Below are positions 4,428 to 52,456 of a stretch of 64,000 nucleotides of DNA, piece after piece. Positions within the stretch are counted from its first letter, which is position 1. Each line of letters starts with the position of its first letter. This stretch comes from Brachionus koreanus (lineage: Eukaryota > Rotifera > Eurotatoria > Ploima > Brachionidae), in the NCBI GenBank assembly GCA_016987375.1, contig PJRA01000313.1:1442715-1506714 (forward strand), given 5' to 3'. The translations under genes were made by a program, and so were the position numbers. The notes beneath the pieces were generated by a model. It was not told the DNA's origin, ran no database searches, and saw only the letters and a list, made by a program, of their open reading frames with translations.

Positions 4428-5628
4428 ATGATCAAATCAGAAGGTTTTTTGGACATGAATGAAATAAAAACACATATTGTGACTAAATTAACCATTTTTT
4501 TTGAAAGGAAGACAGCCAGTTGAAGTGGTTGATGACTCGAATTTTTGTGGCTCTATACTCACATTTTTGTCTTATATTCTTATTGTAATAACATTTCCAA
4601 TTTCATTACCTATGAGCATAAAGGTAAAAAAAACTAATATTAAGTGTTCTGATTTTAGCAACTTTTTTAATCTGTTATTTCTAGATTGTCAAAGAGTATG
4701 AAAGAGCAGTCATATTTCGACTAGGTAGAATTTTGTCCGGAGGAGCTAAAGGACCTGGTCTATTCTTTATTGTTCCATGTATAATTATTTTATTTTAATT
4801 TTCAAAAAAAAAATAACTGACAATAAAAAAGGTATTGATTCGATTGTAACCGTGGACTTAAGGTTTTTATTTTTTCATTTTAATTTAAAAATAATTGAAA
4901 TATTAAAGATCAGTAACTTTTGATGTGCCTCCACAAGAAATTTTGACTAAAGATTCAGTAACTGTTACAGTCGATGCAGTAGTTTATTTCAGAATTTCGG
5001 ATCCAATTCAGTCTGTGACCAAAATCGCTAATTCAAGATACTCTACTCAATTGCTTGCAGCTACAACTTTGAGAAATATTCTCGGCACTAAGTCATTACA
5101 TGAAATTTTAAGTGATAAAGAATCTATTTCGCATCATATGCAGGTATAATTTTTATTTATTTTTTTATTTTAGTTTAAATTTTATTAATTTCTAAGGAAA
5201 TTTTGGACCATGCCACTGACGAATGGTAAATAGATTTATTTTTTCAACATTTAATTTATTTTAATTTTAGGGGTGTAAAAGTAGAAAGAGTAGAAGTGTA
5301 AGATTTAAAATTTTTGGGTTTTCGATGATAAATTTTGATCAATAGGAAGGATGTAAAATTGCCTGTTCAAATGCAACGTGCCATGGCCACAGAGGCTGAA
5401 GCAGCTCGAGAAGCTAGAGCTAAAGTAATAGCAGCCGAAGGAGAACAAAAAGCTTCAGTTTCATTGAAATCAGCGGCAGATACAATAAATCAAAGTCCAG
5501 TTGCCCTACAGTTGCGTTATTTACAGACTCTTACTCACATTGCAGCTGAAAAGAACTCCACTATTGTATTCCCTATTCCATTAGAACTTTTAAGAAGCTT
5601 TCCTGGTATAAAAGAGGGAAAATTTTAA
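4428..5628 (+). CDS. Stomatin-like band-7 protein B
   Basis: Second stomatin paralog, 276 residues. Exons: 4428-4443, 4508-4623, 4685-4778, 4832-4862, 4909-5143, 5197-5225, 5271-5297, 5346-5628; all phases close. The N-terminal exon gives only five whole codons. The hairpin reads [14 protein letters not shown]; then [49 protein letters not shown] and [12 protein letters not shown]. One intron splits the Cys codon of the PCID motif, as in paralog F. Another splits the conserved Trp codon (TG|G), so the 56-nt exon seen in A, C and D is cut 29+27 here. The N-terminal exon is assigned by phase only. The function is presumably membrane scaffolding or channel modulation, inferred from the family. 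Confidence 0.88.
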
Positions 5629-7089
5629 AGAACAAATATTCTTTCTTATGTGAGCATATTTACTTAATAAATACAATTTTTTCATTGTTTTGATTCTAAA
5701 TAATTTTAAAATCATGAACAAATCTTAATCATGAATTTATTTTGTTTTTAAATTTTTTATTGAAAAAATTTCAATTTTTTTTTCATTTTTTTCGTAATAA
5801 AAGTCAATTTTTCTACTTTAAAAAAAATTTTTTCTTCAATGTCGTTCTAAATTTTCAAAAAAAATAAGAAAATAATCGTATTCCAATGTTATTCTTTAAA
5901 ATTTTTTTTTCCTAAAACAAAAACGACTTTTAATTAGTTTGTTTCCAAACTTTGATAAGGCCACATGTGTATTTATTTTCTGCTTAATTTAAGGCCTTCA
6001 TTAAAAGGAAATTAGATACTAAAAAATTTATAATTAATTTAGATAATCTGAATTTTAACTTGAATCAAATATTTTTGAATAATTTCACATAGTGAATTAA
6101 TTCAGAGATTATAAGAGAAAAATTCTCTTTAATTGAATTTTGAAAATTGTTTCATTTATTCAATTTTTTGTCGAAGATGAATAACTTGTTTAAAATAATT
6201 TGAAATAATTTGTTTAAATTTAGAATAAAAAACTTGGCCAAAAATTTTGCAAATATTTGGGAATCATAAATTTACATACCAGGCAGTTTTTAAAATAATA
6301 ATTTAAAAATCTTTAATAGACCATGAGTAATTGAATTCTTTAGGAAACACTTAAAATGCAAAATATACTCAAAAATTAGCTGATTATTTAAAATTAAGTT
6401 CTCTCTTTTCATTGAATTATCTATAAATAACTAATCTTTCGTTTAAGATACAAATTTTATTGATCTAACAAACAAAAATAAGCTAAAAAGCTTAAAACAC
6501 GAGTCTCATAGCCAAGTTTTAATTTTTATTTTTTTTTACCAAAACCAACAATGAAAAAATAAGATCAATAAAATAATTTTGTTTATTTTTTTGATTTTAA
6601 AAAAATTTTACTTTATAAATTTTATTTAGCTTAGAAGATCCTTTTTTTTAAATTAAAAATTTAAATTATTGTTTTTCTCAATGTAATTATTGATTTTTAT
6701 CTAATTTTCCGTTTATGATTTTAAAAAATGGTCTCAAATTAAAAATTTAACTTTAATTTATTCAAATTTTATTTCCGAATTAATTCCTATTTTTTAAATT
6801 TATCGATGCAGGTAAATCATAGGGTTAAAATTTGAAATCAGTAATTATCTCATTTATTTAAGTATTTGCCTACGGCCAATTATGCCTGGTTATTGTCCAT
6901 TTAAAAGAGTATATGACTAGCAGAAAAGCTTTTATTTAGGTTTATAAATTAGATCATGCAAACGGAATCAAATTTTGAATACCTACTGAAAAAGCTATTA
7001 TTTTATAGAATCAAAATCTAGTTTTTAATTAAATAGTGAATTTTTATTTTTTTTTGTTATTAAAATATCAATAATTCGTTGATTAATCA
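5629..7089. other. Intergenic spacer between stomatin B and C
   Basis: About 1.5 kb of AT-rich DNA with long T and A runs. No coding potential, RNA gene or inverted repeat is evident to me. Confidence 0.5.
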
Positions 7090-8068
7090 ATGGAAAGATT
7101 TAAATATCCAAGCAACCATATTCGTGTAAATATTGACCAGCCGTTTCAAAGAAAAGAAAACTTTAGTTCGAAATTTTTGACTAACATTCTAGTTTTTTTT
7201 TCAATTTTTTTAATAATTATTTCTTTGCCTTTAAGTCTCATCTATTGCATGAAAGTAGGAAATAAATAATCCAAAAAGTAAACAAAATTAATTGATTTTT
7301 TAAAGATGATACGAGAGTATGAACGAGCGGTGATTTTTAGACTAGGAAGATGCATCAAAAAGGTAAAGGGACCTAGTCTATTTTTTATTCTACCATGTAT
7401 GGACAATTATGAAAAAGTGGATACTAGAATAAGATCATGTTGTATAAATCCACAAGAGATTTTGACCAAAGATTCAGTTACTATAAATTGTGAAGCAATC
7501 ATATTTTTCAAGGTCTTTGATCCATATTTGGCCCTGAGTAAAATTCATAACTTTTATTATGGAACTAAATCGTTGTCAGCATCAATTTTGCGAAACACAC
7601 TAAGCTCGCGAACTTTACAAGAAATTTTGCAAGAAAAAGATACTTTAACCCACTATATACATGTAAATAATTAAAAAATTTAACTCATTTCAATTAATTT
7701 AGAAAAATTTAGAGCTTGTTAAATAAAGCAACTAGAGAATGGGGTACGTTAGTAGAGCGAATCGAAATGTAATTAAATATATAATTATTTTTTTGTTTAA
7801 TGTTAGATTTTTTAGAAAAGACTTGAGACTTCCCATTGAATTGCAAAAAGCCATGTCAGCTGAAGCTGAAGCAACAAGAGAAGCTAGAGCTCTTGAAATT
7901 AGAGCTTTTGGAGAAAAAAAAGCGTGTTTTTTTTTGAAAAATGCGGGTGACCTATTTGCAGAAAATTCGACTTCTGTTCAGCTCAGATACTTGCAAACTT
8001 TGTCTCAAATAGCTTCAGAAAATAGGTCTACAATTATTTTCCCGATACCAATAGAAATTTTTAATTAA
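7090..8068 (+). CDS. Divergent stomatin-like band-7 protein C
   Basis: Intact but fast-evolving stomatin paralog, 276 residues. Exons: 7090-7254, 7306-7662, 7713-7768, 7816-8068; phases close. The hydrophobic hairpin (FFSIFLIIISLPLSLIY), [41 protein letters not shown] and [12 protein letters not shown] are kept. The loop that is SGGAKGPG in the paralogs is IKKVKGPS here, the VDLR...VTFDVPP strand is replaced by VDTRIRSCCINP, and GVKVERVE is GTLVERIE. It alone lacks an intron in the N-terminal coding part. It has no internal stop, so it is probably a functional, diverging copy rather than a pseudogene. The role is unknown beyond membrane association. Confidence 0.87.
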
Positions 8069-8371
8069 TTTTAGTAAAAATTTTTTTTTTAAACAAAATG
8101 GTTAATTATAACATTAATAACATTTTTTTTTATTTTTATACCTATTCGAATCGTCTCAAAAATCTATATTGCTGTTTATCATTGTTTAAAGAAGTAGTAA
8201 AAAAAAAAAAACTTTCATTCTTTTTAAACCATATTTTTTGTAAAAACAATTTCGATCTTTGATCGAAATACTTTATAATTGAAAAATTGGAAATAAATAA
8301 AAAAAAATTGTTAAATTGGAAGAAAATTTTTTACATAAAATTATAGATGATTTTAATAAAAATTAAATTAA

Positions 8372-8713
8372 GGTTCGCGCGTAGCAAAACTACCGCACTA
8401 TCTGAATTTGCATAAACTGACTTTAAAAAATTAATCTGCATAGTTGAAAACCTAAAAAATCCATTTATTTAGGTCAAAAAAAAAATTTTTGGACCCCACC
8501 TCCTTAAAGATTTGAAAAAAAACAAAAGTTGCTTGTCTTTAAGTCAAAACAATTTACCATGATTTTTGACAAAAGATGGTAAAAACATAGACTTTTTCCA
8601 GTTATTTTGGATCTAGTCCGAGGTGAACCCCCCAACTCCTTTTTTTTTACAGATTCTGAAACTAGAGGAAATTCTGAATAAAATGTTGGGACCACTTTTT
8701 TTAATTTTTTTAA
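8372..8713 (+). mobile_element. Truncated copy of a TTAA-flanked DNA element (same family as 39106-39852)
   Basis: The sequence starts after a TTAA (8368-8371) with GGTTCGCGCGTAGCAAAACT, matching the terminal sequence of the complete element at 39.1 kb (AGTTCGCGCGATGAAAAACT). Internal blocks also match, including the attctgaaactag...aaattctgaa stretch. I could not find the opposite terminus: the right part runs into an inverted duplication. It is non-autonomous, with no transposase frame. Confidence 0.6.
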
Positions 8714-8894
8714 ATTTAAGCAAAAAAAATTGCTAAAAATAAGTGTAAAATCAAAAAAAAAGAATTAAATTGTTTTATTTTGATAAATGTTTTTAGAACT
8801 TAAATAAATTTCTTCATATGTTAAAATTTTATATTAACAGACTAAATTTATTAAAAAAATAAAAAAAGTGGTCCCAACATTTTATTCAGAATTT
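8669..8894. repeat. Long inverted repeat (about 44-bp arms)
   Basis: The arm at 8669-8713 (starting AAATTCTGAATAAAATGTTG) recurs as its reverse complement at 8851-8894 with almost no mismatch, around a loop of about 137 bp. A transcript would form a strong hairpin. It appears derived from the interior of the TTAA-type element that begins at 8372. Confidence 0.8.
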
Positions 8895-8972
8895 AGACAC
8901 TAAAAATCGAAAAAATTTCTTTTCTTGAAACACAATTTTTTTATTTATTTTTCAACTTTTCAATTATCAATT

Positions 8973-9042
8973 TTTTCGATCAGGACTCGAGCCAAAACAG
9001 TTTTGTTTGAGGAAAAATCAATTAACACCTTAACTAACCAGA
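8973..9042 (-). other. tRNA-like fragment or SINE head (weak)
   Basis: On the minus strand, TTAGTTAAGGTG resembles a pol III A box. About 45 nt further on, GGCTCGAGTCCTG resembles a B box. I could not fold a proper cloverleaf acceptor stem, so this is at best a tRNA relic or the head of a SINE. Low confidence. Confidence 0.2.
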
Positions 9043-9179
9043 CTTTCTTAATATTTTTTTATGTCAATATTTATAAATTGAAATAATTAAAATAATCTTT
9101 TTCAACTGTTTTAAGCAATGACAAAAAAACAATAAAATTTTCGAATACACTGGTTATGAAATGTTCACAACAATAATTC

Positions 9180-9420
9180 CATTCTATATTTTTAATGCAG
9201 TCAGGGAGCGAGGTGATTTATGTCCAGAACAAAAAGCAAGGGTCCAAGTACAAATCCTTTGGAAAATCCACTACAAATACCTCTGACCATTAAGAAAACA
9301 TCAGCAAGTTCAACTCGCTGAGTTCTCTTTCCCAAAAAGTATTTGATTCATCAACAATTTTACCTATCTCACTAGGCCATCTCACTCGTTATTGATCGAA
9401 ATTTGCCAAATTAAAAGAAA
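9180..9420 (-). pseudogene. LINE reverse transcriptase relic
   Basis: The minus-strand translation contains GFSKGFVLGPLLFVLDINHL, the RT motif preceding the catalytic box. Flanking frames are interrupted and no intact domain remains. Probably the same broad LINE family as the relics at 0.1, 38, 42 and 53 kb. Confidence 0.6.
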
Positions 9421-11170
9421 ATGTCTGTTTTTCCAAGAAATTCAAAGTTCATTGACAACTCTTTGTGGCCAAAAAAGACGCAAAAGTTCTGGATTTTTGA
9501 GAAATTTAAAAATAAAATAGGATGCGAAACATTATTTTAATTTTTTTTTTAAGAAATCAAAAAAGCTTAATTTTTGAACCAATGTTATATGTTATTTCAA
9601 TATATTATAATTTATTACATGATATTTTATAATTTTATTTGGAATTAGTGAGTATCACCTTTAAAATTCGCTCGTGACTTACTTGAGTTTTCTAAATGCA
9701 TTTTACATCTATGCGCTTGAAATGACTTTGAAATAGTATCGTAAATTTTAATTTTCAAAAAATATTTTCACAATTTATTTAGAAAAAGCCTAAAATTGAT
9801 ATATGATCTTAAACTTATAAATAATTTGTTAAATTAATGCTGAATGGAGAGATGCTAATAAAAAGTATAATTTACATCATTTAATTTTGGCTTTTTAAAA
9901 TAAAAAAAAGACGTTAATTACTAAATTTATTTTTAATAAAAGATTGAGTAAATAAATTTATTTTTGAAATAAAATTGTTATTTTTTGTTTTAAAGTATAT
10001 ATCAATTATTGATTATTTGATTTAGAAAAAAATGAAGAAAACTTTTTTTACAATTATTTTTTCAAAAATATAATTTCGATTACTAAGACTAAAACAACAT
10101 CTAAAAAATTTATGTGCAAAAGTCAACATAAAATAAGTTGAATAATGAATATTAATTATTTAAATGAAAAATAAGTATTTCTGGTTTTAAAATAAAGAAG
10201 AGGCGAAAAAAGTTACATTTTAGATAAAAAAGTAAATTCTTCTTAACATAGATTAAATTTTTTAAGGTAATGCTTGATTTAAAAAGCAGTTACAAGTGAG
10301 TTTTGCATGATTATTGACTGGAATTAAAAAAATATAAATCAATATTATAAAACTCCATTCAAAACTTAAGTTATTGATGAAATCAGTTATTAAAGCTTAT
10401 TGTTTAGTAAATGAAAATTAAAGTTTTAAATTGATTAAGATTTTTAAGTTCAATTTTTGAAAAACACCAATAATTTGATATTTATTTCACTAGAGGAAAG
10501 AATTTTACCTCGATAAATGCGTGGTAACAGTTGACTGTAAATTTTTTTGATTGACGTAAATTTTATCCTCTTAGATTCATTTTATTTTATAAAATTAAAT
10601 TTTAAGAAATGATTCATTTTTATCACCATGGCATAGATTATGCATTCTTTTTTTTCTATTTCCTTTCTAGCTTTCAATTTTAATCAAAAACTGTTTTCTA
10701 TCGGTATAATTTAACACAGAAAACAAACTCTCTTATACATAAGCTTTAAAATTCCACTCTGCTAACTAACTAATGTATTGAAATAAATTTTAAAAGAAAA
10801 AAATCAATCCCAGGTAATTTATTATTTTTACTCGGATCGATTTTTAAAACTTTTACATTATTATTAGAAAATTTTTGAAAATAAAAAATCCATTATTCTC
10901 AAACTGTTTTTATTTAAAAGGAAACAAAACATTAGAAAAATTCAATATTAAAAATTATCGACTAATTCGCATTTAAATACAACTGGCAAAGTCTCATTCA
11001 AATAAAATTTTTAAAAAATTAGTATAATTTAAAAATTGAAATAAATTTTTTATCTAAGTAATTAAATTAGTTAGTATACTTTAAGCCAAATTTTATTTTA
11101 ACTTTTGAAAAAATTTGGTTGACAAATTATACAAATTAATCAATTTAAGTAAGAATTTTTTTATTTAAAG

Positions 11171-12186
11171 TGCAATCCGAGGAATCAAAAAATCAAGCAG
11201 AAGAAGGCTTTGGACTATGTGGCTACATACTTATAGGTCTTTCTTACATCATAGTCATTTTTACTTTTCCTTTTAGCTTATTATTTTGCATCAAAGTAAT
11301 GACTAATTTTTCTAGTTTATTTTTTTATCTCTTTACCATTTTTAGATAGTGAAAGAATATGAAAGAGCAGTTATTTTGAGATTGGGTCGTATATTATCAG
11401 GCGGAGCTAAAGGACCTGGTCTTTTTTTTATCTTGCCATGCATTGACCAAATTGTTACAACTGATCTGAGGTTAAAAATAAAATTAATTATTTTAATTAA
11501 TTTCTTAATATAGAACGATAACTTTTGATGTACCACCACAAGAAATATTGACCAAAGATTCTTTAAGCATTACAGTAGATGCAGTCTGCTATTTTAGAAT
11601 TTTTGATCCGGTTGTCTCAGTAACAAATGTAGAAAATGCCCAAGTATCTACGAGACTGTTAGCGGCCACTACATTGAGAAATATTCTTGGTACAAGAACA
11701 TTGCAAGAAATTTTACAAGATAAAGAAATAATTGCCCAAAATATGCAAGTACTTAGCTAATGTAACTAATTTATATTTTTTTAAAAAAAAATTTATAATT
11801 TGAATAGGAAACTCTTGACAGTATAACTGATTCGTGGGGAATCAAAGTAGAACGAGTCGAAGTGTATGTTATTCTTTATTTTAGTTTTAATCTATTTTTA
11901 ATTTATTTTTAATTTTAGCAAAGATGTAAGACTTCCTGTACAAATGCAGCGTGCAATGGCAACTGAAGCCGAGTCAAGTCGTGAAGCCAGAGCTAAAGTA
12001 ATTGCAGCTGAAGGAGAGCAAAAAGCCTCTATTGCCTTAAAACAAGCTGCTGATATCATAAATCAAAGTCCAGTAGCTTTACAACTCAGATATTTGCAAA
12101 CTTTGACCAACATTTCAGCCGAAAAGAATTCAACAATAATATTCCCAATTCCGATTGAAATGCTTAAATCTTTTTCAAAAAGCTAA
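11171..12186 (+). CDS. Stomatin-like band-7 protein D (first exon not found)
   Basis: Fourth plus-strand stomatin paralog. Exons seen: 11171-11295, 11346-11470, 11514-11748, 11808-11863, 11919-12186. The first of these begins in phase 1, so a short N-terminal exon with the start codon must lie upstream, as in A and B; I could not place it. The hairpin reads [16 protein letters not shown], followed by [49 protein letters not shown] and [12 protein letters not shown]. The undivided 56-nt exon (11808-11863) matches those of A and C. Its stop lies 199 bp from the stop of convergent gene E. A channel-modulating membrane scaffold is inferred from the family. Confidence 0.87.
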
Positions 12187-12384
12187 GATAAAACTAATTT
12201 AATTGAGTTTTAATTTTAATATGAATGAAAATAAATATGTGTTCAAAAAAATATTTTTATTTCAAATTTAGCTAATTAAACAGCTAATTTTTAAAAAATT
12301 TTTTATTTGAAAAAAATAACCAAATTTTTTATTATCGGTTTATTATTTACATACATATTTTAGGCATGAATAAGAATATGGTTT

Positions 12385-14990
12385 TCAAGTATTTGGATTG
12401 AATAATGAAGCAGTCTTGCTAGCTAAAAACGAAAACATCTCTAAAGGTATAGGAAAAACTATTGTAGAGTTTTTCTCCGAAGCAATTTGAGTTAAAGTTT
12501 GCAGATAGCGAAGTTGAATCGCTATCGGAGACTCACTGATTATTATAGCAGCGTCTTTTAAGGCTTTTGAAGCTTTCTGTTCACCTTCGGCAGCAATTAC
12601 TTTTGCTCTGGCTTCTCTTGCAGCTTCAGCTTCGGTAGCCATTGCTCTTTGTAATTGAACCGGAAGTCTTACATCTTTGACTTCGACTCTTTCTACTTTC
12701 ACTCCCTTTATTAAAAACAAAGCATTCATATTTTTCATTTTTGTGGTCATCTGACTTCCAGCTCAATAAGACAAAAAAATAAAATCAATTGATTTTTAAT
12801 AGAAAATTTTAATTTAAAAAAATATATAGCTTTGATTTTATTTTTATTTAATCTCAATTGTTTTAGAAATTTACCCAAGGTCCAGTTGCATCATCTAAAT
12901 TATTCTTAAAAAAAAGTTAATGAATTTTATATTTTTTAATCTTGGTCTAAAATTACTTGTATAAGAATTGCAACCGATTCTCTATCAGATAAAATTTCAT
13001 GTAATGATTTAGTACCCAAAATGTTTCGTAATGTAGATGCAGCAAGTAGTTTGGTTGACTTAGCCGCATCTTCTACATTAATCACTGAAATTACTGCGTT
13101 TAATATTCGAAAATACACCACGGCATCAACAGAAACAGTTACTGAATCTTTTGTCAAAATCTAAAAACATTTTAATTAAAAAAACAGAAAAAAAGATAAA
13201 AATATCTAGTTGCAAATGCAAAAAAAAATATCAATAATATGCGGAAAATATTTAGTTAAATTGACATAATGATTTTTAAAATTTTTTTTTAATAAGAAAT
13301 CTAGAATCAAAAAACATTAAAATTAATTAATGTTTTTTAATAAATGAATTAATTAAAAATTAAATAATATAATAAAAAATCTAGATAAAAAAATTTAAAA
13401 AATAGATATTTTATGTATACCTTGAAAATGAAAAAAAAAAAATAAATTTTGGTCGAAAAGTCAGATTAAAACAGTGGTTTAGTTTCAATCTTCGTAAACC
13501 TTAAATTACATGTTTATTCATTAAAAAAATACTTAAAATTTAGCTGTTTATTTTTTATTTCATTTAAATTTTTGATTCCATCACAAAAATAATTGATTTT
13601 GCAAAATAATTTTCTTAATTTTTCTAACAAATCTTATTTCTATTTAGTTTTCTAATTAACAATAAATTCTTAATTCTATGTTCATTTCTCTTGAATTTTA
13701 ACAAAAATTGTATTTCAAAATTAATTAGTTAAAGCTAAAATATTTGATTCAGTAATCGGCTAAAAGCGGAAAAAATATCAGAACTTGGAATGTAATATAA
13801 AATAACTGAGCTTTTTATGATTATATTCAATACATGTTTTTTTTTTTAAATTGAAATAAATCAGAAGTTTAAGTGATTGAAAATTAACATGTCTTAAAAT
13901 TTATTAACAAGATTTTTTTATTCATTATTGTTTATTTTCTTTCTTTAGAAGTTAATACAATTCCAAAAAAAAGCATAGAAATTTTTTTTCTCAGAAATAA
14001 TTATTTTATTAGATAATAATTTAAGATAAATAAACTTACTTCTTGTGGAGGAACATCAAAAGTAACTTAAAAAATAAATAATTAAAAATTAAAATTTCAA
14101 TCAATTTAATTTACCTGTTCTTAGATCGACTTTAGTATATGTATCAATACAGGGTAATCTATTTTTTTAATGATAATAAAATCTTAAATCAGATAAATAG
14201 AAAAAACTTACACAAAAAAAATACCAGGTCCTTTGGCTCCACCAGATAGAATTCTACCCAGCCGAAAAATAACTGCTCGTTCATATTCTTGGGCAACTTT
14301 TACGCAAGCACATAATGAAAAGGGAAATGTAAATATGAGAAACAGAAATGAGAGAGCTACTAGTATATGGCCCCAAATATCGATTTTTTCATCAATATCT
14401 AAAATTTGTAATTAATAAAATTTTTGCTTACTACTTAAACTTAAATTTAATCTACTCATTTCGTAACCAGAACCAGACGTTGAATATTTAGAGTACTTAA
14501 AAGCTTGATTTTGTTGAGATGCTGAACTGGATGCATAAGCTCCTTTTTGCGCGCTTCCGCTAGTTTGCTTTTCATTCCTAGTAATTATCTTTACAGTTTT
14601 TTGTGTTTGTCCATTTTTATTGTGATATTGTTGATGAGATAGAGGATATTTTTCATTGTCTTCGTCAAATTCGTTTTGACTGTCATCAAGTGTATCGTCT
14701 GCATCATTTTCTTCAAAATCTTCATTTTCATTATTTTTATTTTGCTGAAAGGCTTGCAAGCGGCTAGTGTGTGCGCTTGGTGCACGAACTTTTGGCATTC
14801 GACTGGAAGAATTTTTTAAAATAGATGTTGTCTTTATTTTTTTAGTAGGATTTATTGCCATCGGATTTATTTCTTCTTCATCTTCATTATCATCACTTGC
14901 TTGATTAGAAGTCTGCAAGAACCGGCTAGTTGTTATAGCTTCAATATTTGTTGTTTGTTCACGTCTCCTATCCGAGTTGTAATCACTCAT
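12385..14990 (-). CDS. Stomatin-like protein E with a 186-residue disordered N-terminus
   Basis: 456 residues. Exons (minus strand): 14990-14432, 14398-14212, 14158-14115, 14065-14040, 13160-12957, 12904-12875, 12705-12385; phases close. Residues 1-186 are polar, acidic and low-complexity (Ser/Gln/Asn/Glu-rich) with no recognised domain. Then comes the stomatin core: hairpin [79 protein letters not shown]. elegans MEC-2 also has extra termini around its stomatin core, but I see no direct homology of the extension. The first intron is only 33 nt; the intron after PPQE is 879 nt. Closest local relative is gene G: E exon 2 (187 nt) equals three G exons. The intron between VERVEV and KDV is absent in both. 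Confidence 0.85.
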
Positions 14991-17900
14991 TTTTTAATTG
15001 TGATTTTCAGCTTTGTCTTAAAAAAAAAGTTATAAGATAATAAAATGATCTTAAATCACTTAAAAAAAATAAAAAAAAATGAAATTTAGAATGTTTATTG
15101 AAATTAAAAGTTTGAGCGAATTTAAATGCTTGTCACATACAACAACAATTTTTTTTTCATTTTACTTTATTAATTGGAATTATAAAAAATCAATGCTTCA
15201 TTTTTTTTCGTTAATTTTGATTTATTAACTAAATACGTGAATTTCATTAATTTTTTGGCCAGGCTTCCTTCTATTTATCAACTTAAGTTAATATTTAGTT
15301 TTTTTTTCTCTATTAATTTTGGCCAGATTGACCAATTTTCTCCAATTTACTTCGATTTCTATTAAATCAGTCACAATAATACTGTTCTTTTTTATGTACT
15401 TGGATTTGGCGTATATTATTTTCTAGAAACTACGACAAAAGGCCTCAAACTTACACAAATCACTAATTAAAACTCTCTAAATAGCTATTAAGCTCTAGGC
15501 TTTATATAAACTATTGCTTTAAAAATTATTTAATAAATCGACCAATTTCCTTTTTAATTACCCTTTATTTGTCTTTTAAATATATATTTCTATTTTAATA
15601 TATATTATATATATATGATTACACCTACGACTAGTCGGTTTTAAAGCATTTCCGAGAGATTCTATATTTTTTTATTTTATATTTAAATACTAAAATCAAT
15701 AGTTTTGATTTATTCTTATTAATATTTTTGGCATTTGTTTCTTTTTTGTTTAGTGAACTTATCCTTAAGTCAAATTCTATCTAGTCCAAAATAAAGAAAA
15801 ATTGTTTAATCGTGCCTAATTGTATAAAAGCTGTTTGTAATTATTGTAATTGATTGACTTAAATTTGAAATAAATCTGAACTAAATGCGAACTCTTAAGA
15901 TTTGTCTTTTCTGAAAAAAAATCCATATTTATTTATTGATTGCTTCATAAATGATTATAAAATGAAAATTATCTCATTTTACTATTAGTTTTTGCTTACA
16001 AATGGTTGCTTTAATCCATTGTCCCAAAAATTTCTATTAATTCTACAATAGATTTTTTTTAAAAAGCCTTTATATTTCTTTTCTTTAAACTATGTACTAT
16101 TCATTTGTAGAACAATATTTAAAGAATTACTTGTTAATTTCTTTATCTTTAAGTGTTTATTGATAAACTTTAATTCAATTTCAATCTTGAGATGAAGATT
16201 TTTAATCCTATCTGTGATTAAAATAGGATACTTGAGTTAAAAAGATATTCATTAGAGATATCGGCTGATAATGCTTCCAATTTCCTTATAATTTGAAAAA
16301 TCTATTTTATCTCTGTGAAATCTTTATTTTCTTGGACTAGAGCTCAAGTGTTTTTTCGGATAAAAAACTGCTTGGGTCTTAGAATTGAGACAAAAACAGT
16401 TTTTTCAGTTGATGATCATTTTACTGCTCAATTTTATTCTAAGTAGATCAATAGGCTGAAATTATTCACTTGGCTTTAGTGAAATAACTAGATGCTTGGG
16501 CCCTGTTTTCTTTCAATTCATTATTTAAAAATTAAATTATTCGATTAAAATAACAAAATGATATTCTATGTAAATTATGCTTTGTTAATATCTAGTGTAT
16601 TCGCTAAGCACCTTAGGTAATCAACTATTAAAATGTTGCTATTTAATTAAATTTATATTCCTATTCAATATGTTATATTTTGCTGAGTTAAGAAACATAT
16701 ATTTTATCGCTTAAATATTGTTTATTCTCAGGCAAAAATCGATTTAATTCGATCAGTGAATTTTTCTCATTTTATTTGTTAAAGAAATCCAAATGCTTTA
16801 CGATCTTTACTAAAAAAAAGCTCAATAAAAAAAATGAAAATTTTATTTAAAATTTGACACATGAATTGCAAAGTACCTTGTCGTAGATTTTGTGTCAGAA
16901 TTTATATTGGATCTTCTAGATAAAAAAAAATGAAAATCATAAATTTATATTGATTTTTTTGTTGTATTTAATTGCAGAGGTAAATGAATTTTATGAGCTA
17001 AACATACAAAACAAATTGGATGACTTAGATTAATAACGGTTGAACAATATTCTTAATATGAACTTGTAATTAGAAAATTTTATTTTACTTTCATAAACTT
17101 TATAAATGCAAAATAAATTTACTTTATTTTTACTAGTAGTTTTTTTAATATGTAGAATAATTTAACCAGGCAATGCTTGCTTACAATTAAATAGAATGAA
17201 AAATTTCAATGCTAAACCAATTACAATTATATCATGCAGAATGACATTAATATGTAAAAGGAAGTAATAAATTAATTTTATATAATCATGAAATATCTAT
17301 CAGAAATTATTTTATTTCAAATAGGAACTTGTATTCTTTTTATTGTTGATGTCAACATAATCTCAATGAAAATAATGATGGTTGTATTTGACACTGCATC
17401 GGCATAATTTAGTAGCAGAAACCAAAACTAATTCAATAGTTAAATTCATTTAATCTTTAAATTAATTAAACCCTTAAGAGAAAAAATGTTCTTTAAATTC
17501 TTACAATCTTTAAATTTATTTTTTATCCCTGAATAGAAATAATTGAAATTAAAGAAAGTCTTTTTTTTTGAGTCGAATAATTTTCAAGCACAAAAAAATG
17601 AATTAAAAGAATTGTCATATGCTTGAATGAGAAGAATTAATCTCTAAATAAGATTACTTAAACTAAAATCTAATTTATGCCAAACGCAACTAAAATTCTT
17701 GAACCTAAGTATACATTGGGTTTAATTCAAAATTAATTTTCTAAATCTATTTTGTATTATTATTAATTTGACATATGCAATTTTTTTTCATTAGAGAATT
17801 AATTTCGGAATCAAAAATTATTTTAAAATTAACTGTATTTTTTTTTCCTAGAATTAGATTGTTAATATATTTAGAAATTAGAACTAAATTAAAGCCAAAA

Positions 17901-18894
17901 TAACATCCGTTTTAATTTAAAATCTGGAAAAAATTTTAGCTTTTATCTAAATTATAAAAATTTTAAAAATAAAATAAAAAAATAATTTAACTTTTTCTAA
18001 AAATTAGTCGATATCTAATTTCTACAATATTAATTATTTTGCTTAAATTTGAAATTTACATAAATATATAATATGATGACTTTTAAAAAAAAATCAGTTG
18101 ATTTTTGTCAAATATTAGTTGGAAAATTTTTATTTTAAATAAACGATTTGTTTCAGCGGATTAGCAAAAAATTGAAATTGGAAGAATGAGTTTACTTAAT
18201 ATTTAATCGATTTTTGTTTATACAAAAATTTAGATTGTTAATAACTCACCAAAGTGAAAAGCCCATGAATTTTCGGAAAGAAACAACAAAATAAATTTAG
18301 AAAAAAAAAAAAGGAAAACAACTGGAAATTACAATTAATACACTCTCGTAGCTAATTTAGCAATCCATTATTATTATTTAGAATAAATTTTTTTTTATTT
18401 ACAATAAAAATCGCTTTTATTCTATCTATAAATTAAAACTTTTTGTTAGAAGAAAATATTGTTTGAAAAATCTAGAAACACTTTCCAAACAAAAGTTATT
18501 TCATTATGTTTCATTCTAAAGACATGTTTTATACCAATCCCATTTTAAGCTTTTGTTTTTGAAAATTTGAATCATGTTTCACAGCTCAAGTTGAAAATCT
18601 AAAGAATCAAGTGTAGCCAATTTTAATTATAAATTTTGTAAGCTCACATCAATTTTTCATTTAAACATAGAAAATTTCTGTATAAATAAAATAATTTTGT
18701 GTTTTAAAATGACCATAGCTAGTGGTTAAATTGTTGATTTTCAAAATTATTAAAAAAAAATCTTCTTTTGAATAAATTTTTACAAGATATGTTTTATTAA
18801 GTGTAAATTTCAAAAGTATAAACACAAATTAAATTTTTTCTAGGAATAAAAATTTCAAAGGTAATTAAAAACAAAAGTGAGGCATTCGTCGCTA
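14991..18894. other. Gene-free AT-rich region upstream of stomatin E
   Basis: About 3.9 kb with no coding exon or RNA gene that I can support. A short (TA)n run sits near 15598-15617. It should contain the promoter of gene E and the 3' flank of gene F. Confidence 0.5.
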
Positions 18895-20309
18895 TTAACT
18901 TTGAGATCCATGAATAACTGTATTTTCTTGTCCGATAAGCTTCAAAAATTCTACTGGTATAGGAAAAACGATTGTAGAATTTTTTTCGCCGGCTATATGA
19001 GTTAAGGTTTGTAAATAACGCAGCTGTAAAGCTATGGGCGATTTGTTGATAGTATCTGCAGCTTCTTTTAGTGCAACTGAAGCATTTTGTTCTCCTTGAG
19101 CGGCTACGACCTTAGCTCTTGCTTCTCTTGTCGCTTCAGCTTCGGTTGCCATTGCTCGTTGCAATTGTACCGGCAGTCTTACATCCTTTCTAAAATAGAA
19201 AAAAACTAAAAACAAATTTTTATTCATATTTTATTTAATTTACACTTCTACTCTTTCAACCATTACACCCTTAAATAATTTTGAATAAAATTTTTTCATA
19301 TTTTAAAAATTTCATTAAATTACCCTTTTTTTTTAATTTGAAAAAAAAATTCAACAAATATTAGTTGGAAAATTTTTAAAATTAGAAATTATTAAATATA
19401 CTCACCAAACATCTTTAAAAATAATGTATTAAAATTAAGCTTTTTTTATTGATCTAAATTACCTGTAGCATCATCGAGAATTTCCTTTTTATTGAAGAAT
19501 AGAATGAAAATTTTATGACCAAAAAAATTCTAAATGAATTACCTGCATATGATGCGCAAGAGATTCACGATCTTGTAGCACTTCTTGTAAAGTTTTAGTA
19601 CCTAAAATATTACGCAGTGTTGTTGCTGCTAATAAGCGAGTTGAATATTGTGCATTTTCTACATTTATGACTGATGCAACAGGATCAAAAATTCTGAAAT
19701 AGACTACTGCATCAACTGTTACTGTAACTGAATCTTTAGTGAGAATTTCTTGAGGTGGCACATCGAATGTAATAGTTCTTTTGATTGAATTGAGTTTTTA
19801 TTTTATAAAAGATTTTAAAAGATTCAAATTCACCTCAAATCAACTGTAACTAAATTATCAATACCTAAATATATGATTAATAATTTTTTTTAGATGTGTT
19901 TTATTATTTTATACATGGCAAAATGAAAAATAGTCCTGGACCCTTGGCTCCACCAGTAACTATTCTGCCTAATCTGAAAATAACCTAAAAAATTTAATTC
20001 TCTTAAAAAAAAATGAATTTTTTTTAACTTTAAAAATCTTACTGCTCTTTGATACTCTTGAACAACTTTCAAACAGCAACACAATGTAAATGGTAGGCCA
20101 ATAAAGAGCATAAAATATGACAGGGCTATTAACACATGACCGCAAAAGCCAAACCCTTCTTCAGCAGAGTATTTAGCATCTGTGTTCGGCACATCACTGA
20201 ATGCAACTTGCTTATCTTTATTTTTTAATTAAAAATTCAATTAAAAACAAAATCAAAATTCTTTACTTTTGCTCTTTCCAAGAGGATCTGGTCCAACATT
20301 TTTATTCAT
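18895..20309 (-). CDS. Stomatin-like band-7 protein F, with a 7-nt and an inferred 1-nt exon
   Basis: 300 residues if spliced as follows (minus strand): 20309-20267, 20215-20043, 19984-19915, 19864-19834, 19777-19543, 19484-19463, 19412-19406, 19324, 19269-19244, 19189-18895. The protein starts MNKNVGPDPLGKSK. It has hairpin [65 protein letters not shown] and [12 protein letters not shown]. The region that is one 56-nt exon in A, C and D is cut here into 22+7+1+26 nt, which also sums to 56. Without the single-base exon, the reading frame hits a stop two codons after the join. The intron in the PCID Cys codon is shared with B. An alternative reading is a 1-base deletion in this copy, but paralog G shows the same arrangement. 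Confidence 0.85.
19324..19324 (-). other. Putative single-nucleotide exon of stomatin F
   Basis: On the minus strand the sequence reads AAAAAG|G|GTAATTT. The single G has a perfect acceptor before it and a perfect donor after it. It lies between introns of 81 nt (19405-19325) and 54 nt (19323-19270). It supplies the missing third base of the conserved Trp codon. Confidence 0.6.
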
Positions 20310-21231
20310 TCTATAATTATTTTAAATAAATTGGACAGACAAGATAGCAATAAAATGCCGCTTTACTATGAGCGGTTTTATTTATTTAGAAAAATTTTTA
20401 TTTAAACTTTATTGTTTAATTGAGAAAAAATATAAATTCTTAAAGTAAAATAAAAACAATGACGGTTTTCAGTTAATTAGAGACTAAATACAAATTTTGA
20501 TCTAAACCTCATTATTTGTTATGCTTACAAGATGATTTTTTATTTTTTTTTTGATCAATTATCTAAATCCGAATACGCTCCTAGAAAGATGTATGAAAAT
20601 CGATTTTTCATATTTAGATTTTGTTTTATTAATTTTTACTAATCATGTAATTTAGAAAATAAACTGAAAAAGAATAAGCTAAATTATTTTTTTTATTAAT
20701 TAAAATGTTGTGTTTTGCTAAATTAATTAACTTTTTTTGTTGCTGATCTATACTGTTTCTTATTGCATAAACAAAAGCACAAAAATTAAGTATCTGCTTG
20801 AGTTTGAGTTATGATATCCTGTTTTGTTTTAGGGATAAATTGCTATTTATTTAGGTAACTTAGACTAAGGAAATTAAACAGGACGATGAAAAACTAAAAC
20901 TTAAGTTTCTTGTTCGATAGCTTTAATGCCATTTCTTGAAAAAATTAATAACTTAGTTAGCGGATATACATTGTATTAGCTTTCGTCATATTTTTTTTTC
21001 AATTTTCTGTAATGAAAAATTCTAATTAATCATGAGAATCAAAATTCTTGCATGAAATTTATCTAGTTATTTAGGTCGATAAAATTTTTTCGTCAAGATA
21101 CAAATTCATTCCGTGCTTTTTTTTTAAATTAAAAGAAAATCCCAAATTTAATAAAAATTAACTAGAAATAATATATTTATGTTTGTTAAACTTTATATAC
21201 ATGACAAGATAGCAAATTTTTAACAAAAATA
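20310..21231. other. Spacer between stomatin F and G
   Basis: AT-rich DNA of about 0.9 kb with no gene seen. It is the 5' flank of F and the 3' flank of G on the minus strand. Confidence 0.5.
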
Positions 21232-24200
21232 TCAATAATTAGCAGTCAAAGCTGGTATTTTTTTGTGAGTTATAGATTTTTTTACTACAGAGGAAATAAT
21301 ATCTAGCGGAATAGGAAAAACTATGGTCGAGTTCTTTTCCGAAGCTATTTGAGTCAAGGTTTGAAGATAACGAAGTTGTATAGCCAAAGAAGATTCACTG
21401 ATGACGTCAGCTGCTTCTTTCAGAGCCTTGGATGCCTTTTGCTCGCCTTCAGCAGCAATTACTTTTGCTCTGGCTTCTCTTGCAGCTTCAGCTTCGGTAG
21501 CCATTGCTCGCTGCAATTGAACTGGCAGTCTAACATCTTTAACTTCTACTCTTTCAACTTTAACTCCCTGAAATATACAGATAAATTGACAATTTACTTT
21601 TTTAATAATCTATTTTACCCTTTTAGAAAAAATTCAATTAAATTAAAACCAATAAATAAATATTAACTTACCATGGTTCAGTTGTCTCATCCAAATTGCT
21701 CTTTAATATCATTTTTAATATAATTAGAAAAATTTTTTAAAAGGATTTTTTTACTTGAATCAACATTGCAACTGATTCTCTATCGGACAAGATTTCATGA
21801 AGTGATTTTGTGCCGAGTATGTTTCGTAAAGTTGAAGCAGCTAATAATTTTGTAGACTTGGGAGCATCTTCAATATTAATGACGGATATTACAGCGTTGA
21901 ATATCCGAAAATAGACAACTGCGTCGACCGACACTGTCACTGAATCTCTTGTTAAAATCTTGATTTTTGACATTTAAAATCATATTTTAGATAAATTAAT
22001 TTGAAATTACTTCTTGCGGAGGCACATCGAATGTAACTTAAAAGTTTTAAAAATTAAGTTTTTAAATTATCTAAACAAGAATTATTTACCTGTTCTTAAG
22101 TCAACTTTTGTATAGGTGTCAATACATGGTAGGCTTTTAGAAAAAAATATAAATTTAACTATCATTATGTTAAAAATTATTTTTTAAAAATTAAAAAAAT
22201 TTTAAATCTAAATCGAATAAATAAAATAGTTGATTACACAAAAAATATTCCAGGACCTTTTTCGCCACTTTTTAATATACGACCCAAACGAAATATTACA
22301 GCTCTAGAAAATAAAAATTTTTTAATAATTAAAAATTTGTTAATAAATGCCATTCTTAAATTTCAAGTATGCATTTAATGCAATCTTATTTTGATCAGCA
22401 TTAAAGTTATCTGAAGTTATCGATTTTTTTTTCTAAAAATCTTAATCAAAATTTTATTCATGCACTTTTATTTTGTAAAAAAAAAAAGCTGGTCATAATA
22501 AAGCATATACCTTTCGTATTCTTGAGCAACCTGAAACAAAAAAAATTAATATTTCTATATTTAAATTAGTTTAATTTACCTTCAGGCAGGTACAAAGTGA
22601 AAACGGAAATGAGAATATTAAAAATAAATATGATAATATGATCAATATTCGACCCCATAAGTCAAATTCTTCATTCGGATCTTCATTAAGAAAAAAATAT
22701 TATTTCATTTCAGCTAAATTTCAAGAAAAAAAATTTTAGATTTAATTATTATTTAGAATTGGAGAATTAAAATTTTTAATTTGTAGAATTTTTGAAAGAA
22801 CTGAAATTGTAGAAAAACCAAGGATATTTTTTTCCTTAATTTAAAAAAAATTAAAAAGCCATTTTTATTTAAACTGATGAAAACAAGTTATTAATTTTGA
22901 TTGACATTTATTCTAAAAGTTTGGAATTTTCGAACTTTTTATTCACATTAAAAAACTACAATCAAATCAAAATAAATCTTAAATTTGTAGAGAATGTTTT
23001 TTTTTCACAAAAATATTTAAAAATTTAGTTGAATTGTTGCAAAACAATATATTTTTAGTTAATTGTCAACTTAGGATAAATTTTTTCAACAATATTTTAA
23101 AAATCAATATATACAATTCGTTAATAACACTTAATCAGTTAAGAAAATATCAAAATTTTAGGATAAATCTCAATATTAATCAAACTTGGCATATTCAATC
23201 TATCATTAAGCATTTATAAATTTAGTTTAAAACATTTATAAAAAATAATTTTTATTCATATTTTTATATCATTAAATTAAGATTTTAGTTTTAAATTTTT
23301 TGAGTGATTTAAAATTCATTCAAATTTGTAACTGAAAAATGGTTATTCGTAAAAAATCTCCAATAAATAGTTTTTAAGTTTAAAATTTTTAAAAGAAAAT
23401 TCACAAGAAATCTCCCGTTGATATCCGTTTCCTGTTGAAATCCTGATAAGATCCTAATTAAGATCTTAACGGAAATCGGCTTCTGGGAAATAGCTTCATC
23501 CTTCTTAAAATTGGTCTTGATAAGTAAAATTACGTCCTCTTACAAAATGAATTATTTAGCGAAAAAGATGGCAATCAGAAGTAAAACGATCTGGGCTACA
23601 TGTTGGGTGAGAAAGAAGTTCGATTTCTTCCAGCTATTCTATTCTATTGTTCTTCTAGCTATATGAGGTCAAGCACAACTATCTGGTACCAGCTCAAAGT
23701 TTACTGTATCATGGAAATTCGACCAAACAAATAATCTTACCATTTTAACAAATCTTCTCTTTTCACGACTAGCTAAGCTGGTAGAGATGGATTCCTTTGA
23801 AAGGTCATACAATACTATTAAATATTTTAAACTAATTTTGTAAACTTTCTTATTTTAATCAGAATTTCACCTTTTATTAGATTTTTTCACGAGTAACTTT
23901 TGTTGCTAATAGGCCTATTTTACAATAATGGAGTTAAAGAACCAAAATTTCAAAATTTTCATTAAATTTTATTTTACACTTACAAAGGGCCGATGGCAAT
24001 TTGAAACTTTTTTATAGTCATTTATCTTATTAAGTATAAATCATATCCACATTAAACTTTCTGGATTCGTTACATTTAGATTTATTAAATTCTGATTTAT
24101 TTTTTATTTGAATACTTCTGTTAGTATTATTTGATTTCCAAAATTGATAAATGATTCAAAAAACTAATCAAATTTTTTTTAAATTGTTTAAGGTAAATAA

Positions 24201-34050: not shown

Positions 34051-36567
34051 TCAAATATCCCAGCTGAACAAATGGTGTTCGACTAGCATGTCTTTAATAG
34101 ATTCATTAATTGCTGAGTCTCGATCAAAATTTGGTAACTCAGCATCTTGACTTAGCAAAAACGAAAATTGAGAAAGAATACGAAGTTCACATTTAATTTG
34201 TACCCAACCAGGACTTCTCAAAAATGACCATCTATGGTACCATTTTTCAACAGTTTCCACACATGAACACAAAGTCTCTAGCCAAATGTGCAAAACCCGC
34301 TCATTAAGGCCGACACAAATAAGAGATCTAAATTTTATATCCATACTAATTCGACGCGGATCGTGGCTCATGTTTATAATTTGCACTGATTTGTACAAAA
34401 GCTCATCAGGTGTCAAAACTTTGCCATCCTCATCCAGGCGAAACGTTCGGCACAAAACCAAACGTGAATAAACACTATCAAAGTCCTTTTCAACTACTTT
34501 CTTAGCTGCTTCTTCAATAAACGACCATGGATGAGATGCACTTCCCAATACTGACCATTTTTTTAGGCCATGCTCAAATATTGCTTTAATAACTAGTGAA
34601 AATTCACCTCTAATTAATTCACCTATTCTTTCACTGACTGAATCATCACCAGCGATTGAATAAATTTTTCCATTTCTTTCATCTATCATTGAGACAAATT
34701 TACTCGGAAACCAACCTTTGACTCCATTCATTTCACCTATCCAGCAATGGTCATCCTTGGTCGACAATACTGTAATTATGTCATTTTTCTTAAAGCCCAA
34801 CTCGTCATCATCAGTTTTGTCAAAATCCAATAGAGCCTTGGCGCGTTTGACTCTTTTAGACTTGGTCGTATCTGCATATAGCTCATAGTCGCGGCTATGC
34901 GACTCTACTGAATAATCCGCATTCAAATTGCTATTTAGATATTTTTGCGGATCTTGGGTTTGAAAATGATGTGCTATTTTGAGTATAATTTCGCGTAAAT
35001 TCACCAAAAACTCGGTTTGAAAAACATTTTTCATTTTTGCTTCATCTTCCATGTAAAGGCTTTCACTGTTTAAACTGCGAATGCTAGAATTTATCTTAGA
35101 TCCATTTAAACCATTCGACTCTGAACGATTATTATTTAGGTCTGATTTAAAGGATTTTTTTATAAGCTTAAAAATATTGTGATTGTTGCTCTCATGTGTG
35201 CGATAATGAGCCCTTTCCTTGATTAATGGCAAATTGTGACAATTGGACGGATTTATGATTTGTCCTATTTGGGCCATTAAATAGGCCTGATGCTTGCGCC
35301 GTGCTGAGTCCAGTAGATTTTTGTTTACCGATGATGCAACTCGAATCATTGTTTCAATCAATAAATCAATATTGACCATCTCTGTGGGCATTTCGGTCAA
35401 AATGGTGAATATTTGACTAGAGCTTTCAGAGCTGAGTATTTTGGACTCGTTTAGTTTGAACATTGCCAAAGTAATTTGGAATAGAGCTGGTGAGCCCTCG
35501 TAGAAAAACAAATCCCAAATTCTTAGCAAAATTCTCATGTCAAACACATTTGAAAACAAGGTCAAATACCAATTGATGCAAATTAAAGATAGTTCTATGT
35601 CATGTTTTTTGAATTGTTTTTCCAATTCAGGTAAATAAGTGGCTGTTAATTGCCGCAGTACTTTCATGTCAGCTTGTACTCCTATTAAAGAGTGCGAGTA
35701 ATAAGAAGCTGGTAGTAAGTCTTCTAAAATTGAACACATAAGCCAGAAAGTGTCCTCTTCCTCAAGAAATAATAGCAAACTAGCTACAATGGTACCCATG
35801 CCTTGACAATATCCAATATTTGGATAAAGCCAAGCAATAGTCTGCAAAACTCTTCTTAACCGCGGAATGCCGACACTGTTTGCCGCAGTAAAACATGCAT
35901 TAGTCGGTAAAGTTCTTAACAAGTCTTTTTCAATTTGTTTTGAAGCATTAAAATGGTCTTGTTCACTGTTTTTAAATAAATCAACATATTTAAATTTTGA
36001 TTTTTGCTTTTTTTCCAATGCAGTCGATAGACGCATCCAAATGAAAGGTCTCAGTGAATGCGGAATTCCTTGGCCACGAATCATAGAGCGCAATTTTTCA
36101 CATCTTTCCAAACTTGTCACTTGATCCCAAGAAAACGAAGAACCCATGTCGCCATTTAAAGTAAATTCTAAATAGGCTATCCATTTTAATTTGTGTTTGC
36201 TGTCTTCGGTGAAATTGTCTAAAATTGGTTTGGGCCTTGGTGATGATGACAGATTTATGTCAATAAAATTGTCATTGTGAATGATAGGCTCTTCTCTTTC
36301 GATCTTGAAGCCAAACGGATCATGGTAAAATTCGTCTTCTTCGTTTACACAGTCCAATGGAAGCATTGAGCTTATTATTCCGCTGAATGCCCTGCCTGTT
36401 TTTAATTTTATTACACTTTTTTCTTCTTTTGAATTATTTTTTACTAATTTTAGCTCTATTTTGTTTTCTTCGTTGTCCTCGATCAAAGAATCGGCAATAA
36501 CGTGGCCTGGCCAGTATGCATTTTTAGCGTTTTCCATTGAATTTTTTGGATTTTTTTCTGACGTCAT
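34051..36567 (-). CDS. SGSM3: TBC-SH3-RUN Rab GTPase-activating protein, SGSM3-like
   Basis: 838 residues from the first in-frame ATG (36567); the frame is open for 13 more codons upstream without an ATG. Domain order is that of small G protein signalling modulator 3 (RUTBC3). A TBC domain spans about 160-385, with the arginine finger in IEKDLLRTLP (R218) and the glutamine finger in GYCQGM (Q255). An SH3 domain spans about 575-629 (ALLDFDKTDDDELGF...GWFPSKFV), and a RUN domain about 645-815. TBC proteins stimulate GTP hydrolysis by Rab GTPases; the SH3 and RUN parts bind partners and small GTPases. Human SGSM3 is about 750 residues; the N-terminus and the TBC-SH3 linker are longer here. The whole gene is a single exon in a genome where its neighbours are cut every 50-350 bases. 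Confidence 0.93.
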   Translation of the reverse strand: MTSEKNPKNSMENAKNAYWPGHVIADSLIEDNEENKIELKLVKNNSKEEKSVIKLKTGRAFSGIISSMLPLDCVNEEDEFYHDPFGFKIEREEPIIHNDNFIDINLSSSPRPKPILDNFTEDSKHKLKWIAYLEFTLNGDMGSSFSWDQVTSLERCEKLRSMIRGQGIPHSLRPFIWMRLSTALEKKQKSKFKYVDLFKNSEQDHFNASKQIEKDLLRTLPTNACFTAANSVGIPRLRRVLQTIAWLYPNIGYCQGMGTIVASLLLFLEEEDTFWLMCSILEDLLPASYYSHSLIGVQADMKVLRQLTATYLPELEKQFKKHDIELSLICINWYLTLFSNVFDMRILLRIWDLFFYEGSPALFQITLAMFKLNESKILSSESSSQIFTILTEMPTEMVNIDLLIETMIRVASSVNKNLLDSARRKHQAYLMAQIGQIINPSNCHNLPLIKERAHYRTHESNNHNIFKLIKKSFKSDLNNNRSESNGLNGSKINSSIRSLNSESLYMEDEAKMKNVFQTEFLVNLREIILKIAHHFQTQDPQKYLNSNLNADYSVESHSRDYELYADTTKSKRVKRAKALLDFDKTDDDELGFKKNDIITVLSTKDDHCWIGEMNGVKGWFPSKFVSMIDERNGKIYSIAGDDSVSERIGELIRGEFSLVIKAIFEHGLKKWSVLGSASHPWSFIEEAAKKVVEKDFDSVYSRLVLCRTFRLDEDGKVLTPDELLYKSVQIINMSHDPRRISMDIKFRSLICVGLNERVLHIWLETLCSCVETVEKWYHRWSFLRSPGWVQIKCELRILSQFSFLLSQDAELPNFDRDSAINESIKDMLVEHHLFSWDI

Positions 36568-36964
36568 TGAAAGATCATTCAGAAATTGTTTTTTTTTCAA
36601 TGCCACGTTATGACAATATTTAAATTCTTAACAAAAAATTCTTATTTTATTTAGAAAAAAAATATATATATATTAAAAATAATTTATGCTTCATATTGAA
36701 GCTAAGTAAGAATGCAGTAGATTCAATGATAATTGAAATTGAATTTTCAATTTTGGAATCAAATGCCTAAATGTAAAGCTAAATTTGATTGATTGTTTTT
36801 GTAATTTATATATTTTTTCTCATATTGTAGTAAAAAAAAAAAAAGAAAAAAATATAAATTTTCAAATTATAAAATAAAAAAATTAGAAGATTCATTTTTT
36901 TAATGATTTTCTTTACTTTTTACAGTTTATATTACCAAAAATTAAAAGGAATAAGAGTATTTGA

Positions 36965-45985: not shown

Positions 45986-52456
<6,471 letters not shown>

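Follow-up and report, generated by a model that had tools for sequence, protein, structure and literature searches.

Can a single nucleotide serve as an exon of an animal nuclear gene? The question is raised by a stretch of 64,000 nucleotides from the rotifer Brachionus koreanus (hereafter the window, C2:1442715-1506714; the assembly searched comprises 83 Mb in 92 contigs). Two genes of the stomatin family in this window, F and G, were proposed in a sequence-only reading to depend on one guanine that is flanked by an intronic AG on one side and an intronic GT on the other. Here we asked whether this base is needed, whether it is better explained in another way, and how such an arrangement could be spliced and could have arisen.

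Results

Exon-intron structure of genes G and F

Gene G lies on the minus strand. Its earlier exons (22299-22238, 22133-22090, 22036-22011 and 21958-21755, together 21755-22299) were placed by spliced alignment. They are followed by an exon of 29 nt that ends in ...CCATG (21672-21700), a left intron of 52 nt in phase 2 (L, 21620-21671, GTAAGT...TAAAAG), the lone G at 21619, a right intron of 51 nt in phase 0 (R, 21568-21618, GTAAAA...TTTCAG) and the last coding exon, which runs through the stop codon (21232-21567). The lone G is the third base of an invariant tryptophan codon. Reading of the sequence and spliced alignment agree on the two introns and on the exons adjoining them, and site scoring was added for the introns and chain enumeration for the lone G and the last exon. 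In the aligner model the exon lengths are 62, 44, 26, 204, 29, 1 and 273 nt.

Gene F, also on the minus strand, is divided further. Upstream of its lone G (19324, same codon position as in gene G) lie an exon of 22 nt (19463-19484), an exon of 7 nt (19406-19412) and, directly abutting the latter, a left intron of 81 nt in phase 2 (19325-19405). Downstream, a right intron of 54 nt in phase 0 (19270-19323) is followed by an exon of 26 nt (19244-19269) and, through the stop, by the last coding exon (18895-19189). The 22-nt and 26-nt exons were placed by spliced alignment; sequence reading supports the 7-nt exon, both introns and the last exon as well, and for the last exon enumeration gave the same result. 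Exon lengths in the aligner model are 70, 31, 235, 22, 7, 1, 26 and 247 nt. On the minus strand both sequence reading and spliced alignment thus return exactly the coordinates and the intron sizes (52 and 51 nt in G, 81 and 54 nt in F) that had been put forward beforehand. The accompanying sum was right too: the pieces of F, 22+7+1+26, add up to 56, and an undivided exon of 56 nt is found on the plus strand in paralogs A (3247-3302) and C (11808-11863) by spliced alignment and in paralog D (7713-7768) by gene modelling. In human podocin, the exon after exon 5 is an undivided 56 nt. The podocin splice variants on record as c.535-1 (intron 4) and c.738+2 (intron 5) give exon 5 of that gene a length of 204 nt, as in the exon that precedes the present stretch in G and E.

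The lone base is required for the reading frame

In both genes the exons beside the lone G are offset in phase by exactly one base relative to their homologs. A protein-to-genome spliced aligner that was given no hint of a micro-exon and permits GT-AG introns only was run with the protein of gene A and four database proteins, including a molluscan and a placozoan one, as its five queries, at five settings of intron penalty and minimum intron length. As described below, F and G are each present in duplicate, and the one-base exon was chosen in all 100 runs on these four gene copies, 25 for each. Among the controls E, H, B, c3 and c2b it appeared in 0 of 125 runs (0/25 per gene), and a single aligner run per copy found it in none of the 15 other gene copies. 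By the same aligner, 17 of the 21 modelled gene copies are in frame as assembled with GT-AG introns sufficing, GT-AG being the only type allowed.

We also enumerated splice chains with up to two introns for G and up to three for F, using GT, GC or AT donors, AG acceptors and at least 30 nt for each intron. With GT or GC donors, a single chain per gene copy retains the motif W-G-[VI]-x-VERVE, and in 4/4 copies it is the chain with the one-base exon. Admitting AT donors adds four variants per copy of F, every one of which contains the one-base exon. Other open-frame chains were also obtained, all without the motif. The W-G pair ahead of the VER motif is present in 302/302 proteins returned by homologue searches, a set selected by similarity. 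Hence the lone base is required for the frame, and the sole motif-keeping splice solution found uses it in all four copies; the earlier proposal that both genes need it was borne out by unprompted alignment and enumeration alike. On these grounds we consider it very probable that the single guanine is a genuine spliceosomal exon and that F and G, both stomatin genes, are intact and constrained.

When the neighbouring exons of G are joined directly, a stop is met seven codons past the tryptophan, and not within three codons as the sequence-only reading had it; in F it is met two codons after the tryptophan. A stop upon skipping in both genes would suit an exon used as a switch, in which skipping joins TG to GGN and turns the protein off, an idea compatible with the preferred explanation. 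We regard such a switch as unlikely: in G the stop caused by skipping would fall in the last coding exon, and constitutive inclusion accounts for everything observed.

Group I or group II introns around the lone base were considered as well. No Rfam family matched the window at gathering scores, and the introns beside the lone base, being GT-AG introns of 51-81 nt, are unlike either group.

Both genes are duplicated and constrained

The stomatin cluster to which F and G belong is an inverted duplication, with copies at C2:1434-1465 kb and C2:1185-1217 kb, about 0.25 Mb apart, and with nine gene pairs (A to I) in mirrored order. Seven genes of the cluster lie in the window at 2861-22299, while H and I are situated just beyond its edge. 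In total 21 stomatin gene copies were modelled, comprising these nine pairs and the singletons c2b (contig C2), c3 (C3) and c31 (C31); Band-7 matches on contigs C35, C23, C19, C28 and C42 lie outside this set. The remainder of the window holds several other genes on the minus strand: a conserved TBC-SH3-RUN protein gene (34051-36606), a single-ORF protein of 377 aa that by Pfam combines macro, RING-finger and Deltex C-terminal domains in a seemingly unusual way (40212-41345), the largest subunit of an RNA polymerase in several exons (45986-51090) and a conserved v-SNARE gene (56716-57405).

The second copies of the one-base exon were found at C2:1185536 for G and at C2:1187812 for F, with flanking introns of 52/51 nt and 77/53 nt, respectively. 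Both AG|G|GT and the phase are unchanged in 4/4 copies. In F the base ahead of the AG differs between the copies and the left intron measures 81 nt in one and 77 nt in the other, and the core is intact. Seven of the duplicated pairs were compared; their dS values span 0.07-0.16, and between the members of a pair 0-2 differences alter an amino acid; pair D, which was left out of the tree and of the intron statistics, is looser, with 8 differences in 210 residues. The two G copies have a dS of 0.15, a dN/dS of 0.027 and 2 amino-acid-changing differences in 213 codons, and the corresponding values for F are 0.11, 0.019 and 1 in 213 codons. Intron divergence amounts to 8.3% in G and 6.6% in F. Because dN/dS is as low as 0.02-0.03 and amino acid changes between the copies are so few, F and G with the lone base included are under strong constraint.

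These comparisons bear on two further explanations. The first is that assembly or sequencing dropped one G where several stand in a row at the junction, and that in reality there is one ordinary intron. Short G runs do exist at both outer junctions. The same base would however have to be missing from four gene copies at two places about 0.25 Mb apart, the 7-8% divergence of the introns speaks against one sequence having been placed twice, and the 17 copies mentioned above carry the same codons in frame as assembled. The initial judgement that sequencing errors are unlikely is thereby strengthened, and we consider an error very improbable. The second is that F and G are frameshifted pseudogenes with a coincidental AG|G|GT. 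We searched with full-length F, full-length G and a 161-residue profile of the F and G centres, and no F or G transcript occurs among the 120 best matches listed per protein search in a database clustered at 90%, which weighs against the one-base exon and would be in keeping with pseudogenes. The low dN/dS between the copies and the lack of any further stop in the 213 codons of either gene model argue the opposite, and we find the pseudogene explanation hardly credible.

The best identities among the matches listed were 87% to the centre of F (P0234) and 85% to G (P0121). Two of the matches were considered as the genes themselves and rejected: P0121 places with E and not with G on the tree, and P0006, at 81% identity, is related to F. 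In the window, an ORF at 14412-14990 on the minus strand looks like a long N-terminal part of gene E, and P0121 has a similarly long, low-complexity N-terminus.

Intron lengths, splice sites and chance expectation

Away from the lone base, 62 of 67 introns in 19 gene copies are 42-66 nt long (median 53), the counts for gene I excluding three spurious upstream exons in the first model of one copy. The five longer ones measure 104 nt (in both G copies), 169 and 171 nt (in E, at the Trp-Gly codon pair) and 879 nt. Of the eight introns adjoining the lone base in the four copies, six have 51-54 nt. In a side observation, one intron of gene I measures 1.9-2.0 kb (C2:1214719-1216586 and C2:1434015-1435995), compared with about 50-60 nt at that place in the paralogs.

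The R donors reach the 85th percentile among the donors of the stomatin family. The scores of the 16 splice sites beside the lone base are within the family's range, but five of them are low, at or under the 18th percentile, which speaks against the one-base exon: the F left donor in both copies (10th percentile), the left acceptor in the C2:1187 kb copy of F (10th) and the G right acceptor in both copies (18th).

How often the core arises by accident was estimated from real GT...AG stretches of the window of matched length, with at least 40 nt on each side of the core. AGGGT occurred in 19/1500 stretches of about 104 nt (1.3%), in 29/1563 of about 131 nt (1.9%) and in 40/1547 of about 136 nt (2.6%). 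With any base between AG and GT the numbers for these length classes rose to 66/1500 (4.4%), 156/1563 (10.0%) and 179/1547 (11.6%). Shuffled sequences agreed, giving 0.012-0.044 and 0.014-0.063. The chance of AG|G|GT at suitable spacing is consequently 1-3% per gene, and an accident in both genes has a probability of a few in 10,000 if the base must be a guanine, or of about 0.4-0.5% if it may be any base.

This estimate weighs on what we see as the closest competitor, namely that each gene has one long intron, of which one outer site is non-canonical and displaced by a single base (G|TAAGT or CA|GGG), and that the inner AG|G|GT is accidental. Its mature mRNA would be identical, and the GGGG run leaves the origin of the base ambiguous in cDNA. 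Length is no bar, either: both copies of G contain an intron of 104 nt elsewhere, and in E, a sister gene, one long intron of 169-171 nt interrupts the Trp-Gly codon pair. On the other hand, the remaining 17 of 21 gene copies need GT-AG introns alone (with the aligner permitting GT-AG only), just 5 of the 67 other introns exceed 66 nt, and one and the same oddity would be demanded in two non-sister genes together with the twofold accident calculated above. Shifted outer sites are in our view improbable, and we retain the one-base exon as the preferred explanation.

The mRNA reads TG-G-GG, in which the inner G is the same as the G contributed by either outer site if shifted by one base. A cDNA with TGGGG is therefore necessary and not sufficient for the one-base exon, because the first G of the left intron or the last G of the right intron spells the same letters.

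Four intron states at the Trp-Gly codon pair

Counted from the T of TGG, the left intron (phase 2) is at +2 and the right intron (phase 0) at +3. All combinations are represented in the family. F and G have both introns; B, H and c3 have the left one only, as in paralog B with an intron of 45 nt on the plus strand (5226-5270); E and c2b have the right one only, which in E takes up 12706-12874 on the minus strand (169 nt; both placed by spliced alignment); and A, C, D, I and c31 have neither. The 56-nt stretch as a whole is interrupted at four inner places in different paralogs, -12, -5, +2 and +3. We also noted that the 7-nt exon of F, which begins five bases ahead of the Trp codon and includes the first two bases of that codon, has a counterpart in the distant paralog c3 (L021:3862-3868), and that c2b has a 15-nt exon at that place (L018:4155-4169).

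A protein tree was calculated from 45 rows, 19 from this genome and 26 picked out of the 302 proteins. G joins E and P0121 (support 100/99) and F joins P0006 (95/83), and A, B, C, H and I group with proteins that are named as belonging to Brachionus plicatilis or B. calyciflorus. A clade uniting F and G was rejected (AU p 0.00018). Compared with its sister group E, which has the right intron only, G has an extra left intron, and compared with the left-only genes B and H, F has an extra right intron. The fewest changes needed on the tree are five for the left intron and three for the right (19 rows scored, pair D not included). A warning of the tree program indicates that c2b and c3, whose long branches meet, are possibly misplaced. 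The double-intron state is thus either old, with many partial losses, or it has arisen twice.

Comparison of the intron sequences at the Trp-Gly codon pair gave values like those of shuffled sequences for G-E, G-F, F-B, F-H, F-c3, G-H and E-c2b (P 0.07-0.84) and a P of 0.047 for H-B. Shared and separate origins of the introns are not separable by sequence because the introns are too diverged.

Discussion

A possible splicing route and origin

The course of splicing that we propose starts from a pair of GT-AG introns, each ordinary and about 50-80 nt long, that meet at AG|G|GT within TGG GGN, the codons of an invariant Trp-Gly. The acceptor and the donor around the lone base would overlap too closely for simultaneous use, and for this reason the short introns would each be recognised whole (intron definition) and removed successively. 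Were the left intron to leave first, TGG|GT would result and the donor would be rebuilt; were the right intron to leave first, AG|GGG would result and the acceptor would be rebuilt. Such a process may be likened to recursive splicing with a one-base ratchet site. A ratchet point proper leaves a zero-nucleotide exon, and in 4/4 copies one base separates AG and GT.

As to origin, the TGGGGN run has probably acquired introns at two places, one base apart. Paralogs show each of them alone, and F and G hold both neighbouring introns, which would leave one base between them. A bolder idea is that the one-base exon is an intermediate through which a spliceosomal intron shifts its position by one base. 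It is suggested by the fact that dropping either intron from the double state yields the single states observed in the paralogs. Its odds are lowered by a similar published series of group II introns (see below), which was interpreted there as two neighbouring insertion sites, and we put the idea forward tentatively, as a possibility that we rather doubt. If it were true, one-base exons would be a natural stage as introns are gained and lost, and further ones, overlooked by annotation, would be present in animal genomes with short introns.

Comparison with known one-base exons

One-base exons had been called known and extremely rare, which accords with the plant, Fusarium and Candida cases in print. 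In Arabidopsis, a single-nucleotide exon of APC11 was established by substitution, deletion and GFP assays (PMC4674806, Guo and Liu 2015). As in F and G, a base required for the frame lies between an intronic AG and GT, and intron definition with recursive removal was favoured. Unlike in the rotifer, the gene is that of a plant, the base is an A, the exon is experimentally proven and the total is 422 nt, compared with 104-136 nt in F and G. Plant APC11 and VPS55 resemble the present case in having conserved 1-nt microexons that annotation missed and whose base is inside one exon in intronless relatives; they differ in being backed by RNA-seq and RT-PCR and in being ancient in land plants (PMC8831610).

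The one-nucleotide exon of CYP621A in Fusarium was seen in 18 reads in two species (PMC12940212, Nelson and Syed 2026). It shares with F and G the core AGGGT, short introns (with a genome median of 56 nt and, in F. graminearum, a total of 139 nt) and a base lost at a junction within a conserved motif. There, the organism is a fungus and the comparison is between orthologs of one gene and an intronless relative (PMC12940212), whereas F and G are two non-sister paralogs accompanied by sister genes that have either flanking intron alone. The single-base exons of Candida snoRNA hosts, for which the removal pathway was judged from RNA-seq, likewise consist of one base between two introns, and in D. 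hansenii a zero-length exon is found in one corresponding snoRNA cluster; these are yeast snoRNA clusters without a protein reading frame (PMC5033589).

Outside spliceosomal splicing, the Ophiostoma introns rnl-576 and rnl-577 are one base apart and leave a one-base exon, and relatives have either of them alone; here the introns are mitochondrial group II introns and not spliceosomal (PMC12308204). Placozoan cox1 offers a one-base exon in an animal, though a mitochondrial one with group I intron structures on its flanks (PMC5436844). Drosophila ratchet points are alike in that an acceptor is immediately followed by a donor and the intron is removed stepwise, and unlike in that no base is left in the mRNA and the introns are mostly long (PMC8605326); in F and G one base is predicted to be retained in the mRNA and the introns have about 50-80 nt.

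MicroExonator gave mouse candidates below 3 nt separately and unfiltered, high-specificity calling not being possible (PMC7821500), and the excerpted portion of a Drosophila microexon survey (PMC8042270) does not mention one-base exons. Among the literature matches listed, mostly under open licence, there was no one-nucleotide exon of an animal nuclear gene, which does not establish priority.

Significance

A one-nucleotide exon in two animal genes, in an unusual evolutionary setting, is in our view a strong and well-supported prediction from genomic sequence. If true, it would be the first such exon in an animal nuclear gene as far as the open-licence literature listed shows, and it would occur in two non-sister genes. 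Software for gene finding or read alignment would be apt to overlook exons of one base or to disrupt the frame around them. The stomatin family of this rotifer provides a natural series, with neither intron, the left only, the right only or both, and lends itself to testing how such exons originate and whether introns shift by one base. If the prediction is true, the animal spliceosome copes with the smallest possible exon where introns are short.
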